DNA of 64,000 bases from Paraliobacillus zengyii (GTDB lineage Bacteria; Bacillota; Bacilli; Bacillales; Amphibacillaceae). The position numbers and the translations under genes are program-made. The stretch is taken from assembly GCF_003268595.1 (NCBI RefSeq), contig NZ_CP029797.1, forward strand, positions 2,873,501 to 2,937,500, written 5' to 3'. Positions 4,554-60,000 of this stretch are shown in pieces; positions within the stretch are counted from its first letter, which is position 1, and every line of letters starts with the position of its first letter. The notes under the pieces were generated by a model, which had not been told where the DNA came from, ran no database searches, and saw only the letters and a program-made list of their open reading frames with translations.

Positions 4554-4716
4554 GGGTAATCCCACCTTTACTATATTTCATCATTATATCATATATATCG
4601 GAGGTCTGAGTGAAATGTGAATAGGCATATCGCCTTAATTTAAAGCTATTTTCTAAAATGTTTATGTTAAGAAAATTAATAAACTACGATTTAACTGCCA
4701 TGTTGATTTTTGCTTC

Positions 4717-4822
4717 GGGCAGTCGCTTTCCGCGGGCAAGTCTTCAGCTAACTTCGTAAAACAAAAATCGTTTTACGAAGTGGATCTTCAGATCTTGCTT
4801 TTCCCGCAGGAGTCGACTGCCC
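4717..4822 (-). repeat. Long hairpin repeat, locus A left copy (A1)
   Basis: Member of the intergenic hairpin family. Read on the minus strand it runs GACTCCTGCGGGAA ... CTGAAGATCC ... GTTAGCTGAAG ... GCCCGCGGAAAGCG. Outer arms GGGCAGTCG/CGACTGCCC pair perfectly over 9 bp; the apical stem is CTTCGTAAAAC/GTTTTACGAAG. It lacks the inner TGGGAT module. It is paired head-to-head with A2, 105 bases away. Confidence 0.9.
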
Positions 4823-4927
4823 TACGCTACAATCGATGAGCAGAATGTAAATTTATGTTGTAATAATCAGAATTAAACTTTATCACTAGCAGATATCATA
4901 TTACTTTTAACCGCAATCCAGCGAAGA

Positions 4928-5077
4928 CAGCAAAGGGTTGAGACTCCTGTGGGAACAGCAAATGTTTTCGATGGGATGAGTAATCGCAATCCCACAAACC
5001 GAAGATCCTCTATAGAAGCGTTCTTTGCTTCTATAGATAGCTAAGGTTGTGCCCACGGAAAGCGAGACCCTTTGCTG
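4928..5077 (+). repeat. Long hairpin repeat, locus A right copy (A2)
   Basis: Plus-strand copy of the same family with outer arms CAGCAAAGGGT/ACCCTTTGCTG (11 bp, perfect) and apical stem TCTATAGAAGC/GCTTCTATAGA. It contains the extra module AATGTTTTCGATGGGATGAG followed by TAATCGCAATCCCA, itself a small hairpin (TGGGAT/ATCCCA). The conserved 3' flank is GTAGCGGGCAA. With A1 it fills the roughly 600-base gap between yvyF and comFC; no gene is seen there. Confidence 0.9.
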
Positions 5078-5167
5078 ACGTAGCGGGCAATAAGCTCACT
5101 ACCTAATTCCCCATCAACTCTTCACTAATTAGCAACGAATTTTATAAAAATCTACCATCCCTTAGTG

Positions 5168-5857
5168 TCACCTGGCAAGTGTAAAGGCGTATACTTTTGG
5201 GCAGTCATGTTGCTTAAGTAATTTGGCGGCATGTCTTAGTGTGGTTCCTGTTGTGTATATGTCATCAATTAAGATTACGGGTTTAGTAATCGAAGTTTCT
5301 AACAGAAATGGATTGGTGCTAGCTAGCCGTGCTTGGCGTGTCCTTTTTGCATGTTTTTCCCCATGAAGTCGTTTTAATACATTTTTTGTTGGATAAGGAA
5401 GTGATTTAGCTAGTATTTCTGCTTGATTAAACGCCCGTTCGTGCAAACGTTCTTCACTTAATGGTATCGGAACAAGTACAGCATCTGGAACTTCTTTCAC
5501 AAAAATCGTTTCAAAATTGGTAACTAAGTCCTGCCGAAAAGCTTCGTGAATTACATAATCTCCTCGGTATTTCCACTTTGTAATCATCGCTTGTAATTGT
5601 TCATTATACTGATAAACAGAGCGATTGAAAGTTAAAAGGTCTGTATACAATGGATCTTGTTGCCACTTTTCACAATCAGGACAAATTTGATCGTTACTAT
5701 TATTTCTCCCACAGATCTTACAGGTTATTTGTGTGATTCGCTTAAGGCCTGTAAAACAAGTCTGACAGAGGGTTTGCACTTTGGTGGGAACAAAGAAGGT
5801 CTGCCAGTTTACTTCTGGGATAATTAATTTTTGACACCAGACACACCGCATCAACAA
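5168..5857 (-). CDS. comFC: Competence phosphoribosyltransferase-like protein ComFC
   Basis: ComFC is needed for uptake of transforming DNA and works with the ComFA helicase. The 229-residue protein has N-terminal Cys pairs of a zinc site (CVWCQ, CQTCF, CKICGRN, CPDC) and a C-terminal PRTase domain with the PRPP loop VILIDDIYTTGTT. Length is typical. Its start overlaps the end of comFA by 7 bases, so translation is coupled. The first codons are MLMRCVWC. comFB, which lies between comFA and comFC in B. subtilis, is absent. Confidence 0.93.
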   Translation of the reverse strand: MLMRCVWCQKLIIPEVNWQTFFVPTKVQTLCQTCFTGLKRITQITCKICGRNNSNDQICPDCEKWQQDPLYTDLLTFNRSVYQYNEQLQAMITKWKYRGDYVIHEAFRQDLVTNFETIFVKEVPDAVLVPIPLSEERLHERAFNQAEILAKSLPYPTKNVLKRLHGEKHAKRTRQARLASTNPFLLETSITKPVILIDDIYTTGTTLRHAAKLLKQHDCPKVYAFTLAR

Positions 5858-14655: not shown

Positions 14656-14747
14656 ATATTGTACAACTTCCACTCGAATTTCATGTTGATGGAAATTCCG
14701 TCATAAATTATTTATTCTTTAAAAGTAAAGTCATAATCTTCCGCTAC

Positions 14748-14891
14748 GGAAAAACACTCGCTTTCCATGGGGAACGCTTCAGCCTCCTCGCGAGCAAATG
14801 TTTTCGATGGGCTGAGTAATCGCAGGCCCAAAAAACGCTCACTGTGGGGTCTTCAGACTGTTCCTTTCCCATAGGAGTCTCGCATTTTTCC
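14748..14891 (-). repeat. Long hairpin repeat, locus B left copy (B1)
   Basis: Minus-strand copy (GACTCCTATGGGAA ... CTGAAGACC ... CCATGGAAAGCGAG) with outer arms GGAAAAA/TTTTTCC. The TGGGCTGAGTAATCGCAGGCCCA-type module, too long to quote whole, sits at about 14797-14831 in the apical part and points opposite to the core, unlike copies A2, C2 and D2. Its stem is TGGGCT/GGCCCA instead of TGGGAT/ATCCCA. Confidence 0.85.
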
Positions 14892-15026
14892 TCCGCTTGG
14901 TATGGACTTTTCATTCAAGTAAGAGATGTTCTTTTCGTAAGCGTAGTTTATTGTTTCTAACTAGCGCTGTAATTCGTATTTAATCAAACAATTAACATTC
15001 TTCATATTATGCAGTGTACTAAATTA

Positions 15027-15159
15027 GCGTATCAAGTGAAATTGGCGACACTCCTGCAGGAACAGCGCGAGCTGAAGATCCACTCGGAAAGCGTACTGTG
15101 CTTATCCGAGTTAGCTGAAGCCGTGCCTGCGGAAAGGGAGCCGATTTCACTTGATACGC
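15027..15159 (+). repeat. Long hairpin repeat, locus B right copy (B2)
   Basis: Plus-strand copy with the longest outer stem of the family: 20 bp beginning GCGTATCAAGTGAAATTGGC, with one G-T wobble. Core CACTCCTGCAGGAACAGC, CTGAAGATCCACTCGGAAAG, GTTAGCTGAAG and GCCTGCGGAAAG; no inner module. With B1 it occupies the 630-base gap between pbpC and the IDEAL gene. A short open frame inside it is a by-product of the repeat. Confidence 0.9.
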
Positions 15160-26682: not shown

Positions 26683-26771
26683 CTTAAGACAATGTTTATT
26701 CATTCACTGCTATGAATATTTCTCCAACTAATACGTCCACACTACTCCTTACATTTAACACATTCTTATTA

Positions 26772-26845
26772 GCAAAGGCACAGCCATTGAAAAATGGTGT
26801 CGCAAAACTATAGGAGCTACGGGAAAACTACGCTTGCCAGTTATC
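26772..26845 (+). promoter_or_regulatory. Cyclic di-GMP-I (GEMM-I) type riboswitch aptamer, probable
   Basis: AAAGGCACAGCC, stem CCATT-GAAA-AATGG, then GTCGCAAAACTATAGG, GCTACGGG and CTTGCCAGTTATC follow the order of GEMM-I elements (GGCAAACC, GAAA-capped P2, ACGCAAAGC, GCC..GTTACC). The P3 helix is weak and P1 is not clear, so this is a call by pattern. A strong terminator lies 65 bases downstream, but no plus-strand gene follows until fruA, more than 500 bases away. Confidence 0.55.
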
Positions 26846-26909
26846 AATATATATGAAAGTAAAAGGAGACAGGAATACGAATTAGGATGTATTCTTACTA
26901 TTTAAAGGT

Positions 26910-42564: not shown

Positions 42565-42751
42565 ACCATTACTCCCCTCAATATGATTTCGCTTACATAA
42601 TACCTTATCTACTACTTTACCACAAATATACAAAAACTGTTTTATGAAATATAGTTACAATTAGAAAAAATACATAATCACCATATAACATTTCCTTACA
42701 TCGGAATTACCATCAACTGCGACGTAACGTTTTGGTCTTACTCGCTACGTC

Positions 42752-42867
42752 AGCAAATGCTTTCCCTTTCCACGGGCACGGCCTCAGCTAACTTAGTAAA
42801 GCATAGAACGCTTTACTAAGTGGATCTTCGGCTCGCGCTGTTCCCGTAGGAGTGTCAAGCATTTGCT
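42752..42867 (-). repeat. Long hairpin repeat, locus C left copy (C1)
   Basis: Minus-strand copy with outer arms AGCAAATGCTT/AAGCATTTGCT (11 bp, perfect) and apical stem CTTAGTAAAGC/GCTTTACTAAG. No inner module. The core GACACTCCTACGGGAACAGC is shared with the other copies. Confidence 0.9.
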
Positions 42868-42991
42868 TCCTTCGCTAGTGGAACTATTTTTAAGCGTAAG
42901 ACAGAATTAATCGAAACATTTTCAAGAGACTAATGATTAATGTGTTTATTTGTAGTTCATAAAATATTTAAAGCAAAACTAGCGGAGCAAT

Positions 42992-43093
42992 TGAAATGGG
43001 TGAGACTCCTGTGGGAACAGCGAATGTTTTTGATGGGATGAGTAATCGCAATCCCACGGGCTGAAGATCCACTCGGAAAGCGAGCCCATTTCA
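42992..43093 (+). repeat. Long hairpin repeat, locus C right copy (C2), shortened
   Basis: Plus-strand copy with outer arms TGAAATGGG/CCCATTTCA and the TGGGAT module. The segment between the two GGAAAGCG repeats seen in D2 is missing, as expected from deletion between these 8-base direct repeats. Even so, the outer arms still match each other. The 3' flank is GGAGCGGGTAAGA. C1 and C2 fill the gap between the Gfo/Idh gene and the helicase gene. Confidence 0.9.
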
Positions 43094-43186
43094 CTGTGGA
43101 GCGGGTAAGATCTTCTGTTATGTAACAATTTCTCTCTGTTGTAACTGGTAAACAGAGAAACAATTCATAAAAAGAGCATATAAAAA

Positions 43187-43224
43187 AACAGATGAAGGTC
43201 TCTGTAGGAGTAGCTTCATCTGTT
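43187..43224 (-). terminator. Terminator of DinG-like helicase gene
   Basis: 11-bp stem AACAGATGAAG/CTTCATCTGTT with a 16-base loop and seven T on the minus strand. Confidence 0.88.
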
Positions 43225-43230
43225 TGCTTT

Positions 43231-45165
43231 TTAAATCCACTGTATAGTAACTGGTAATAATTTTTCAATTGCTTGAAGGTCTGTCAGTTTTTGTTCTTCT
43301 GTCATTAGTATTCGGATAATCCCTTCATCATCACTCGTTCTAATTAAACGGCCAATTCCTTGTCTAATACGCAACATCATATAAGGATAATCTACTTCAT
43401 TTAATGAATCTGAAGCATGATTTCGTTTCGCTTGAAAGACAGGATCCTGTGGTGGAAATGGTAAAGAAGCAATAATAACTTGGTTTAAAGCTTCTCCAGG
43501 AACATCTAAACCTTCCCAAAGGTTGTAAGAACATAAAACAGAAGCAATGTCTGTTTGAAAATACTTAACTGATTCACTTATTTCTCGATCACCTTCATAA
43601 ATAATTGGAAAGTCAAATGACTTTTCTTCTGCCCATTCACGAAATTGATTCATTTCAAAGAGAGAAGAGAAAAGCACTAACGATTGTCCATTGTTTTTAA
43701 TTAGGCCTTCACCTAGTGTTGTCCACTTTTCTTCCAAGTTTATTTCTGAGACAATGTGACCCTTAATCTCCATTTTCTTTTCATAATCAAATGGTGAGTC
43801 AACCGTAAAGGATTCAAATGCTTTAATTCCTAAACTCTTAGCGATATAAGAAAAATCACCTGCTTGCGCTAACGTCGCTGATGAGAACACAAATGGTATC
43901 TTTTGCGAGAATACATCCTCACCTAAAATGTCTTCGACTAATCGTGGCATGATAACAAATGAAGTATCAGAATCACTTTCTTCTAACCAAAATATCCCTT
44001 GATCATCCTTTAATAAAATCGATAAACCATAAGAATAAAACTCCAAATATTCTTCAATGATCTTTACGTGATACGGATCAATTGTAAATAACTCGGAATC
44101 AAATACTAGTTGCTCAAGTAATTGTGCTACTTTATCATCTAAAGTTTTGATTAGTTTTAACATTTCAGTTGATAATGGTACTTCTTTTCGATTCGATCCT
44201 TTTACCATTTTTGCTGATGCACTAAGAGATTGGAACCATTCGTCATTTAACGTGATAATGTCCTCTACTAAATAAAGTGATTCTTCCCGAACATCTTGAC
44301 TCATATAGCCTGTCAATATTGACTGTAATGTCTCCGCGTGGAAACGATACGTCAAACCTTTTTGTGCGGCGAATTCCAGTAAATGTCCTTCGTCAAAGAC
44401 AACACAACTAGCCTCTGGAAGTAATGGCATCTGCTCTTCTCGTTTACGAGATTCTTTCGTCCAAATGTGTTCCATATAAAAGTCATGGGAACAGATAATT
44501 AAGTCTGTTGCGTGTCGATAATAATCCCGATTTAAAGTTTGTCCACTACGATGACGCCATTCACATGTAGAACATTGTTGAATTGGATCCCATGCAATTT
44601 CTTTCCATTTCTCGTTTGACACCCACGGATACTCTTTACGATCTCCATACCTTTCAAAGGACTGCATAGAAGAGCCTTGCTCAAATACAAAATCCGGAAT
44701 ATCCTCATGCACTTTTAAGATATCTTCATCATCGGTTTCATTCGCTAAAGGATCTAACTTTCTCATACAGACATATTGTTCACGTGCTTTAGCCAAACGA
44801 ACATCAACAGTTAAATCTAAAGCCTTTTCAAGTTTTTCAATATCGCCATTTTTTTTCACTAATTGCTCAATTAATGTTTCATCTGCACAAGAAATAATTG
44901 CTGGCTTTCTCATATATCTTGCGTAACAAATTGCATATAGTAAATAAACAAATGTTTTACCTGTCCCTACACCTGCTTCAGCAAAAACCGTGCTTTTATT
45001 TTTAAATGTATTTTCAATTTGATAAGCCATATAAATTTGTTCGTCACGAAGTTCATATCCTTGCTCAGGTAATATATCATAAAATACATCCCCGATATAA
45101 TCGCCTAATCGATCAAAGAAGTTTTCTTCTTTAGAAATTGTGAATGGAAGTGATTGCTGTTTCAA
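43231..45165 (-). CDS. DinG/Rad3-type ATP-dependent helicase (YpvA-like)
   Basis: A 644-residue XPD-family superfamily-2 helicase without an exonuclease domain. Walker A in FAEAGVGTGKTFVYLLYAIC, Walker B CVVFDEGHLLEFAA, motif III SSATLAQAG, motif VI RIRQGIGRLIRTSDDEG. Four Cys (VCMRK, CSTCEW and others, about 105-210) fit the Fe-S cluster of the family. It probably unwinds damaged or structured DNA. Single gene with its own terminator; the B. subtilis counterpart would be YpvA. Confidence 0.88.
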   Translation of the reverse strand: MKQQSLPFTISKEENFFDRLGDYIGDVFYDILPEQGYELRDEQIYMAYQIENTFKNKSTVFAEAGVGTGKTFVYLLYAICYARYMRKPAIISCADETLIEQLVKKNGDIEKLEKALDLTVDVRLAKAREQYVCMRKLDPLANETDDEDILKVHEDIPDFVFEQGSSMQSFERYGDRKEYPWVSNEKWKEIAWDPIQQCSTCEWRHRSGQTLNRDYYRHATDLIICSHDFYMEHIWTKESRKREEQMPLLPEASCVVFDEGHLLEFAAQKGLTYRFHAETLQSILTGYMSQDVREESLYLVEDIITLNDEWFQSLSASAKMVKGSNRKEVPLSTEMLKLIKTLDDKVAQLLEQLVFDSELFTIDPYHVKIIEEYLEFYSYGLSILLKDDQGIFWLEESDSDTSFVIMPRLVEDILGEDVFSQKIPFVFSSATLAQAGDFSYIAKSLGIKAFESFTVDSPFDYEKKMEIKGHIVSEINLEEKWTTLGEGLIKNNGQSLVLFSSLFEMNQFREWAEEKSFDFPIIYEGDREISESVKYFQTDIASVLCSYNLWEGLDVPGEALNQVIIASLPFPPQDPVFQAKRNHASDSLNEVDYPYMMLRIRQGIGRLIRTSDDEGIIRILMTEEQKLTDLQAIEKLLPVTIQWI

Positions 45166-54363: not shown

Positions 54364-54523
54364 AAAAAAAGACCTTCTAAGAAGAAGGTCTTTTAAGATT
54401 TTAAAAGTCAGTCTTCTCATCTTCTAGACTATTTTCTAGTCTGTCTGGAATTAGCACCGGGCCATACGATATGGCTGGTTGCTGAGACATCAAAGGGCCA
54501 ATCCCTCCGTCTCTCTTGATAAG
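54364..54523 (-). promoter_or_regulatory. SAM-I riboswitch (S-box) with terminator
   Basis: Read on the minus strand: CTTATCAAGAGAGACGGAGG, GATTGGCCCTTTGATGTCTC, AGCAACC, GGTGCTAATTCCAGACAG. These are the P1, K-turn, and core sequences of the S-box. The intrinsic terminator GACCTTCT/AGAAGGTC with a run of T ends 30 bases before metI, so high SAM stops transcription. Confidence 0.97.
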
Positions 54524-54624
54524 AAATAAAATATAAAATTTTCCGAAAAATTTAACTTGTTGTCAGTTTAATGCATCCTTTGAAATAATGCAACACCTTT
54601 TTCCAACTATTCAAAAATTGTACA

Positions 54625-59156: not shown

Positions 59157-59386
59157 AAGCTTTCCTCCTCCTCTAATTCTACATATATACTTTATCATCT
59201 AATCGCCAAATAATCATTATTTTTTAGATTCTGATTAACTCAACTTTCTCAATTGAAAAATAAGCGCTAAACGTTGGCTGTTATGAGTTTGGCGTGTGTT
59301 CATTATAAATATTGACACTATTTAAATAAGTTGTTTATTACTGCATAACCATAGACTAAGTCTTAATCTGCTTGTACATCGCGCTC

Positions 59387-59504
59387 TGAAAATCCACTAC
59401 GCTTTCCGCGGGCACGTCTTCAGCTAACTTCATAAAGCAAAAAACGCTTTATGAAGTGGATCTTCAGACCGTGCTGTTCCCGCAGGAGTCGCAGTGGATT
59501 TTCA
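59387..59504 (-). repeat. Long hairpin repeat, locus D left copy (D1)
   Basis: Minus-strand copy with outer arms TGAAAATCCACT/AGTGGATTTTCA (12 bp, perfect) and apical stem CTTCATAAAGC/GCTTTATGAAG. No inner module. Internal arms GCGACTCCTGCGGGAACAGC and GCCCGCGGAAAGCG also pair in large part. Confidence 0.92.
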
Positions 59505-59676
59505 TCGCTAGTTGCGTAATGTTTATTGTTGAAACTGATAGTGATTTATTAACGATAACAGACCTTTTCAGATATTATTCCATATAGCTTAACACTGTAA
59601 TAAGCTTAATATGAATATAGAAGTCAATAGATAGCGTAGTTTATGTTACTTTTAAGTTCAATTCAGTGAAGGAAGC

Positions 59677-59820
59677 AAATGGATGACACTCCTGTGGGAA
59701 CAGCAAATGTTTTAGGGTGGGATGAGTAATCGCAATCCCACAAGTTGAAGATCCACTCGGAAAGCGACTTTTGCTTATCCAAGTTAGCTGAGACTGTGCC
59801 CACGGAAAGCGAATCCATTT
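59677..59820 (+). repeat. Long hairpin repeat, locus D right copy (D2)
   Basis: Plus-strand copy with outer arms AAATGGAT/ATCCATTT, the TGGGAT module, and an apical stem ACTCGGAAAGC/TGCTTATCCAAGT with mismatches. The 3' flank is GTAACGGGTAAGAG. D1 and D2 occupy most of the 890-base gap between the kinase gene and trxB; the remaining parts (59160-59386, 59505-59676, 59821-60000) are AT rich with no gene. Confidence 0.9.
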
Positions 59821-60000
59821 ACTGATGTAACGGGTAAGAGTCTTCTCTTACCGCGGAGTTTCTCTCAAGTGCGTCAGATCAAACGGACAGATTACCAAAG
59901 AAGCGTGAAGTCAATTTCTATTTTGAATTGTTCGACTTTCTTGTTATACCAAAACTTAAGTGCCTGTTTTATAGTGCGAAAGTTGACTGATTAAAAACAA

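Follow-up and report, generated by a model that had tools for sequence, protein, structure and literature searches.

The eight hairpin repeats of the window (the whole 64,000-nucleotide stretch of Paraliobacillus zengyii DNA analyzed here) lie in facing pairs, and these pairs appear, as shown by better-preserved relatives, to be the body of a non-autonomous transposon (MITE) of 0.3-0.8 kb with terminal inverted repeats of ~24 bp and 8-bp target duplications. For the whole, we lean toward the explanation that this MITE is moved by IS1595 and contains a separate folded RNA module, the sense hairpin of which is read by a host factor.

Facing hairpins in the window and in the genome

A preliminary description of this DNA had placed the pairs at 4717-5077, 14748-15159, 42752-43093, and 59387-59820, and all of them were present, with GACTCC or ACTCC ends facing each other. 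The MITE ends are of two kinds, alpha (GGCTGTTTTCTAAAAGATTGTTGT) and beta (GGCTCTTTTCGTAAGTATTGTTGT-like), and the insertions are in AT-rich DNA. Decay has affected these ends in the window, where locus C alone shows a near target duplication (Table 1); the ends of A, C, and D were positioned by eye. Random 8-mers taken from the same flanks of locus C reached at least 7/8 at a frequency of 0.00065, its ends having been placed by eye beforehand. No clear target duplication was found at the edges of locus A. The covariance model described below recovered seven of the eight window hairpins, C2 being the one missed.

Table 1. Elements and hairpins in the window
Feature	Position	Strand	Remarks
Locus A, decayed MITE with facing hairpin pair	4644..5152	.	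Left end similar to the alpha repeat, 13/15; right end approximate
Hairpin A1	4708..4831	-	Folding strand is minus, outward to the left; model match 2878208-2878331, 101.2 bits
Hairpin A2, inner module present	4925..5080	+	Model match 2878425-2878580, 57.3 bits
Hairpin B1, inner module inverted within the 3' arm	14744..14896	-	Model match 2888244-2888396, 81.2 bits
Hairpin B2	15032..15154	+	Model match 2888532-2888654, 95.2 bits
Locus C, decayed MITE	42635..43178	.	Flanks TATACAAA / TATAAAAA, 7/8; left end agrees with alpha at 16/24, right end with beta at only 13/24
Hairpin C1	42748..42871	-	Model match 2916248-2916371, 104.3 bits
Hairpin C2, 5' half and inner module, 3' half mostly gone	~42997..43090	+	Core at 43005; unmatched by the covariance model
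Locus D, MITE	59314..59830	.	Left end approximate (by eye); likeness to other copies continues past 59830 on the right
Hairpin D1	59384..59507	-	Model match 2932884-2933007, 114.2 bits
Hairpin D2, inner module present	59670..59827	+	Model match 2933170-2933327, 69.9 bits

The loci sit between open reading frames of at least 100 aa, as had been claimed, except that a 103-aa frame (42957-43268), probably spurious, overlaps C2. The earlier statement that the window has no transposase is consistent with our scan of nine flanking-gene proteins, which are part of the window's genes and include no transposase. Empty orthologous sites, the search for which had been proposed, were found for A and C in a genome of the same genus (G109), where positions 4632-5180 of the window are represented by ~20 bases. 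At the site of locus D, this genome lacks the core and has an apparent short remnant of an alpha end (by eye). Its site orthologous to locus B (L203, 18319-19360) also has a facing pair, in which the right hairpin is alike and the left one is of a different subtype; this difference from 14744-15154 of the window may reflect either a hairpin exchange or an independent insertion.

A covariance model built from 47 hairpins was run against the 3.73-Mb genome at E<=0.01, with 150 of 607 candidates scored. At least 146 hairpins were found in 89 clusters, comprising 56 facing pairs ('-+'), one tandem pair ('++'), no tail-to-tail pair ('+-'), and 32 singles, and the gap inside the facing pairs is 73-425 nt. 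Searching the genome for the core pattern ACTCCTRYRGGAA gave 124 exact matches (61 on the plus and 63 on the minus strand), and none when the pattern was read backwards. Mostly single or randomly oriented copies, which would have spoken against a composite family, were not what we observed: 56 of the 57 two-hairpin clusters face each other, and the earlier view that facing pairs multiply as units is right or at least consistent with these pairs. The alternative of one segmental duplication fails, as a spacer stretch is common to a median of 7-8 of about 115 copies. Some of the singles have decayed partners, as at locus C. Because many copies in other genera look single by the core pattern, pairing seems not to be essential.

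Among 49 flanking gene pairs (our own calls of frames of at least 100 codons), 33 are co-directional, 12 convergent, and 4 divergent, and the difference between the latter two (p=0.08) is a weak hint at avoidance of promoter regions. Divergent promoters were looked for in the spacers, and promoter-like sites were not in excess there in either direction. In two genomes, hairpin matches lie within ~160 bases of contig starts (contigs C10, C15, and C19 of G008; C6, C20, C29, C34, and C43 of G520), which suggests that the repeats probably break short-read assemblies.

Terminal repeats and the likely mobilizer

Within the genome, the likeness between copies spans the spacer and, for fewer copies, runs 100-200 bp or more outward from the core and hairpin. 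The outward ends resemble AACAACAATCTTTTAGAAAACAGC or AGCAACAATGTTTGCGAAAAGAGCC, and we take them for the inverted repeats that terminate a longer element. The end pattern GGCTSTTTTCNNAAASATTGTTG (at most two mismatches) was matched in 82 of 159 genomes of the bacterial family and in 33 of 46 genera, including seven matches in the window's own genome, and the reversed controls gave one match in total. Among the loci fetched from relatives were 27 two-ended elements of 78-794 bp, whose 8-bp flanks agree at 8/8 positions in seven and at 7/8 in nine (together 16/27). When left flanks were compared with right flanks of different elements, these levels were reached in 0.43% and 2.1% of comparisons, respectively, or 2.6% for both. 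Twelve of the 27 elements contain a facing pair, one has three hairpins, six have a single hairpin, and eight have no match to the core pattern. Short forms of ~80-190 bp that lack a hairpin core, barely more than two MITE ends, were also seen (L220, near 2331127 of its genome; L341; L293). Terminal repeats, a target duplication, the lack of a transposase gene, and many copies, by which a MITE is recognized, were all found in the family.

On a plasmid of Priestia flexa, ends of the alpha and beta kind lie 1,303 bp apart around a broken gene, with flanks TTAACATA/TTAGCATA (7/8). One piece of this gene matches NF033547 (3.5e-28) and PF12762 (1.3e-10), both of IS1595, and the other matches the IS1/IS1595 zinc-binding model NF050000 (2.4e-11). 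PF12762 matches occur in 15 of the 159 family genomes, 13 being above the cut-off. In two relatives, such elements (L347, 1,880 bp, and L348, 1,466 bp) have an alpha end (23/24), a beta-like end (20/24), and 8-bp duplications without a mismatch (ATAATTAA and TTAATGAA). Their open frames start 57-60 bp inside the beta end and, counted from stop to stop, have 342 and 344 codons; here the MITE ends are common to an IS1595 element. L347 (in G100) also has passenger genes at its alpha end, an apparent helix-turn-helix frame (by eye) and, after it, one of 134 codons. A second IS1595 group (L355, L357, and L363) has ends GGCTCTGTTAAAG...TGTTGA or near and perfect duplications. The GGCTCTGTTAAAG start also begins a 190-bp single-hairpin MITE in a record named Paenibacillus bovis DE0126, where five copies (by eye) gave four perfect 8-bp duplications and one of 7/8 with the end moved by one base, the duplications being positioned by eye. 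Altogether, 17 PF12762 loci were inspected; such ends were found in the five just named and not in the other 12, and shuffled loci gave nine weak pairs altogether.

Since relatives contain IS1595 elements that have both of these ends and are flanked by perfect 8-bp duplications, IS1595 is the likely mobilizer of these MITEs, and their movement in trans by an IS1595 transposase is what the shared ends suggest. Terminal ends far outnumber transposase genes across the family, the hairpin core was found in none of six IS1595 elements examined, and the element and the transposase were never seen together in a MITE-rich genome. No PF12762 match was found in the window's genome, so its copies look like relics; nor was one found in the genomes G063, G069, G076, and G009, which are rich in MITE ends, and many copies thus now look stranded.

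The preliminary description had likened the arrangement to enterobacterial BIMEs, in which hairpins also face each other. BIME-like REP composites moved by a Y1/RAYT transposase would account for facing imperfect palindromes in intergenic DNA, but units of ~120-155 nt, terminal inverted repeats, 8-bp target duplications, and an IS1595-family DDE transposase in elements sharing those ends leave the kinship unsupported, and we find it barely credible.

Several other candidates were set aside. ISL3 was suggested as a partner by GGCTCTTT-like ends together with 8-bp duplications, and the ISL3 ends that we found differ: the sole clear ones among 30 loci (L258 and L261) are GGTTCTAAGTCAAATGTTGGG-like, and the ISL3 model PF01610 was unmatched in G063, G076, G149, G059, and G009, several of which are MITE-rich, with one match containing a stop in G069. 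Autonomous copies were sought at 40 loci with partnerless ends, and the long frames at 17 of them, judged by their first 60 residues, look like ordinary cellular genes. Locus A was unmatched in phage records and had one weak match among plasmids, in Radiobacillus. The terminal repeat matched one viral contig, inside which are frames of ~105 aa only.

The hairpin as a separate folded module

Hairpins for the fold analysis were picked by the core motif, and the 3' half with the best P3 pairing was chosen; pairing of P3, and of helices 2 and 3, is therefore partly selected, and that of P2, helix 1, and helices 4-6 is unselected. For the alignment, a hairpin had to have its five P3 pairs complete and its motifs 60-85 nt apart, and 47 of 212 qualifying hairpins were used. 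Stem cells in these 47 sequences are paired at 93.0%, versus 71.1% in shuffles. The covariation score of 0.564 (0.171 when shuffled) fell to 0.06-0.13 when partners were slid by 1-3 columns and was reached by none of 500 shuffles, a count which is not a probability as the sequences share ancestry. Double changes are present in 18 of 23 pairs. For the outer stem P2, 292 of 305 hairpins were kept (13 dropped), and the pairing excess is 0.31 at register 0 as compared to -0.02 to 0.02 at shifts 1-4. In the same 292 hairpins, G.U mismatches outnumber A.C mismatches by 162 to 46, and this excess, which for reasons of shared ancestry is likewise not a probability, points to the ACTCC strand as the strand kept foldable. 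P3 types usually differ between the members of a pair; in 23 of the 49 pairs, for example, TGCAGG is combined with TGTGGG.

Fixed internal bulges (ACTCC-T-NNNGG / CCNNN-GG-AAAG, with flanking AGCG loops) lie between the long covarying stems. One might regard the repeats as functionless long palindromes that hitch-hike, with pairing restored by arm-to-arm template switching during replication. The inner module, by which the hairpins had been divided into two classes, is in line with this idea, since copying from one arm to the other would place it as it is found: at a fixed site of the 5' arm, or in inverted form in the apex or the 3' arm. It was present in A2, C2, D2, and B1 as described; its position proved to be variable. 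Our survey of the fetched stretches (60 of 89 places and 105 of 146 hairpins) gave 47 sites of this ~35-nt mini-hairpin (ATGTTTTCGATGGGATGAGTAATCGCAATCCCAC) inside hairpins; in 31 of them it has the orientation of the core and lies at +32/+33 from it, and in the other 16 it is inverted, at +67 to +103. It may be a nested module or an arm-to-arm copy. Template switching would, however, tend to erase bulges, and across genera the T bulge and the ACT/AAAG loop hardly change, in contrast to the paired bases, which vary. Such near-fixed unpaired positions amid variable stems argue against mere palindrome repair; the module is moreover present in differently ended shells (below), and we judge the functionless palindrome decidedly unlikely.

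The fixed bulges, the covarying stems, and the preferred strand would suit single-stranded DNA and RNA equally. G.T is the milder mismatch in DNA too, and integron attC hairpins and IS200/IS605 ends are examples of protein-bound single-stranded DNA. The hairpin might thus act as protein-bound single-stranded DNA during replication or transposition and aid transposition or target choice. However, L347 and L348 have perfect duplications yet no hairpin core, eight of the 27 two-ended MITEs have no core match, and to our knowledge DDE elements do not require such hairpins; a role as single-stranded DNA is in our view rather unlikely.

The hairpin is not confined to one kind of element. It occurs in four or five terminal-repeat types, conservatively two IS1595 groups and two or three others. 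A blind search for inverted repeats around hairpins gave at least 15/18 matching positions in 51 of 185 cases, not much above the 32 of 183 null pairings, and recurrent sequences spotted by eye in its list and in the loci were then checked as candidate shells. The inverted-repeat shell GAGGCTGGGACA encloses hairpins at L087 (a pair), L094, L113, L121, L143, L156, L369, and L373, and more weakly at L130; shell GGCCACTGAAAAAGT is found at L224 and L372, and shell GGGGCTGTCTAAAAAGTCC at L124, with a similar left end in L118 and L086 (by eye). For the three types GAGGCTGGGACA, GGCCACTGAAAAAGT, and GGGGCTGTC/GGGGCTGTCTAAAAAGTCC, no target duplication was established. The GGGGCTGTCTAAAAAGTCC shell resembles the ISApl4 end GGGGCTGTACTAGA, as given in the part of PMC12561309 describing that element, and may be another IS1595 subgroup. 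Six genomes (G028, G030, G031, G036, G077, and G078) have 55-91 core matches each, with the first terminal repeat absent. The model is matched at E<=1e-6 in 123 of 398 Bacilli genomes from 21 families and is without a match in 275, and many relatives have at least nine hairpins (at most nine were scored per genome). Two core loci, in Brachybacterium and Microbacterium, lie in GC-rich coding DNA and appear to match by chance. The presence of one hairpin in differently ended shells across a large bacterial group suggests that it has a job.

Rfam 15 at curated cut-offs marked two riboswitches alone in the window (SAM, 54414-54525, minus strand; c-di-GMP-I, 26767-26848, plus strand; each above its cut-off) and left the hairpin unmarked. 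At permissive thresholds, RF02577 (tsr24 of S. aureus) matched 12 of 19 loci (4/6 and 8/13), always on the hairpin and on its ACTCC strand, with 26-35 bits; the best score of 34.7 is below the gathering score of 50 bits, so the hairpin falls short of membership. No match was obtained at seven of the 19 loci, including all four scanned loci of the present MITE type (A, at E<=10, L231, L314, and L320). The hairpin is probably homologous to tsr24, below the membership line.

In all 56 facing pairs the folding strands of both hairpins run outward, and a transcript crossing from either side therefore carries one correctly oriented hairpin. We infer a role for the hairpin as RNA, its reading by a host factor, and, for the facing pair, that it secures one sense hairpin per transcript from either side. 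In the explanation that we favor, an IS1595-family transposase from elsewhere in the cell, or from a past host, would move the MITE by its ends. The hairpins would not be the sites of the transposase, being a separate folded module that elements with other terminal repeats share. Whichever side it came from, a read-through transcript would contain one antisense hairpin and then one sense hairpin just before the exit from the element. The latter would be recognized as RNA by a host factor that is conserved, such as an RNA-binding protein or an RNase, and this factor would trim or insulate the transcript. Insertions would thereby be tolerable in either orientation, which would account for the presence of the module in MITEs with different ends. 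We also offer, as a tentative proposal, that a conserved, structured RNA module of the Bacilli was acquired independently by several differently ended MITE families, the outward pair working in both orientations and the host factor recognizing one hairpin.

If this is true, bacterial transposons carry a standard "host-tolerance" RNA cassette, and tsr24 would be its domesticated or low-copy relative. In the intergenic DNA of many Bacilli the hairpin family is very common, and it connects IS1595 transposons with hairpin repeats spread over whole genomes and with an S. aureus sRNA. That transposons with different ends have one folded module in common is also a testable sign that a host factor sees it.

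Comparison with known systems

The hairpin shares with tsr24 a core on the same strand, GAGACUCC..GGGA.CAG..GAAGA..GGCUGAG..C.GCACCC..GGAAAGCGA. The Rfam entry is an S. aureus sRNA, whereas the hairpins described here are many intergenic copies, often within MITEs.

In the accessible portions of the open-access literature, no paper naming this hairpin family was found. The stem-loop families bcr1 (B. cereus), EFAR (Enterococci), Efa-1, Sta-1, and Bhal-1 are described in sections of PMC2267715 and PMC3733652. Like the present hairpins, they are stem-loop or MITE repeats of low-GC Firmicutes, with lengths of 74-167 bp in the table of PMC2267715. Sta-1 and Bhal-1 were compared by description, and either may be identical with our hairpin.

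REPs, as introduced in PMC3733652, are 20-40 bp long, most have a GTAG or CGTC tag, and their transposases are RAYTs. REP and BIME elements resemble the present ones in that hairpins face each other between genes, and differ in that the hairpins here are far outside the 20-40 bp range and come with terminal repeats, target duplications, and IS1595.

The published IS1595 element ISApl4 produces A/T-rich 8-bp repeats, according to the passages of PMC12561309 that deal with it. IS1595 insertion sequences and MITEs of this kind have in common with our elements the IS1595-type DDE transposase (in the Priestia flexa copy), A/T-rich 8-bp duplications, and ends starting with GG; the difference is that here one or two long structured hairpins take the place of the interior.
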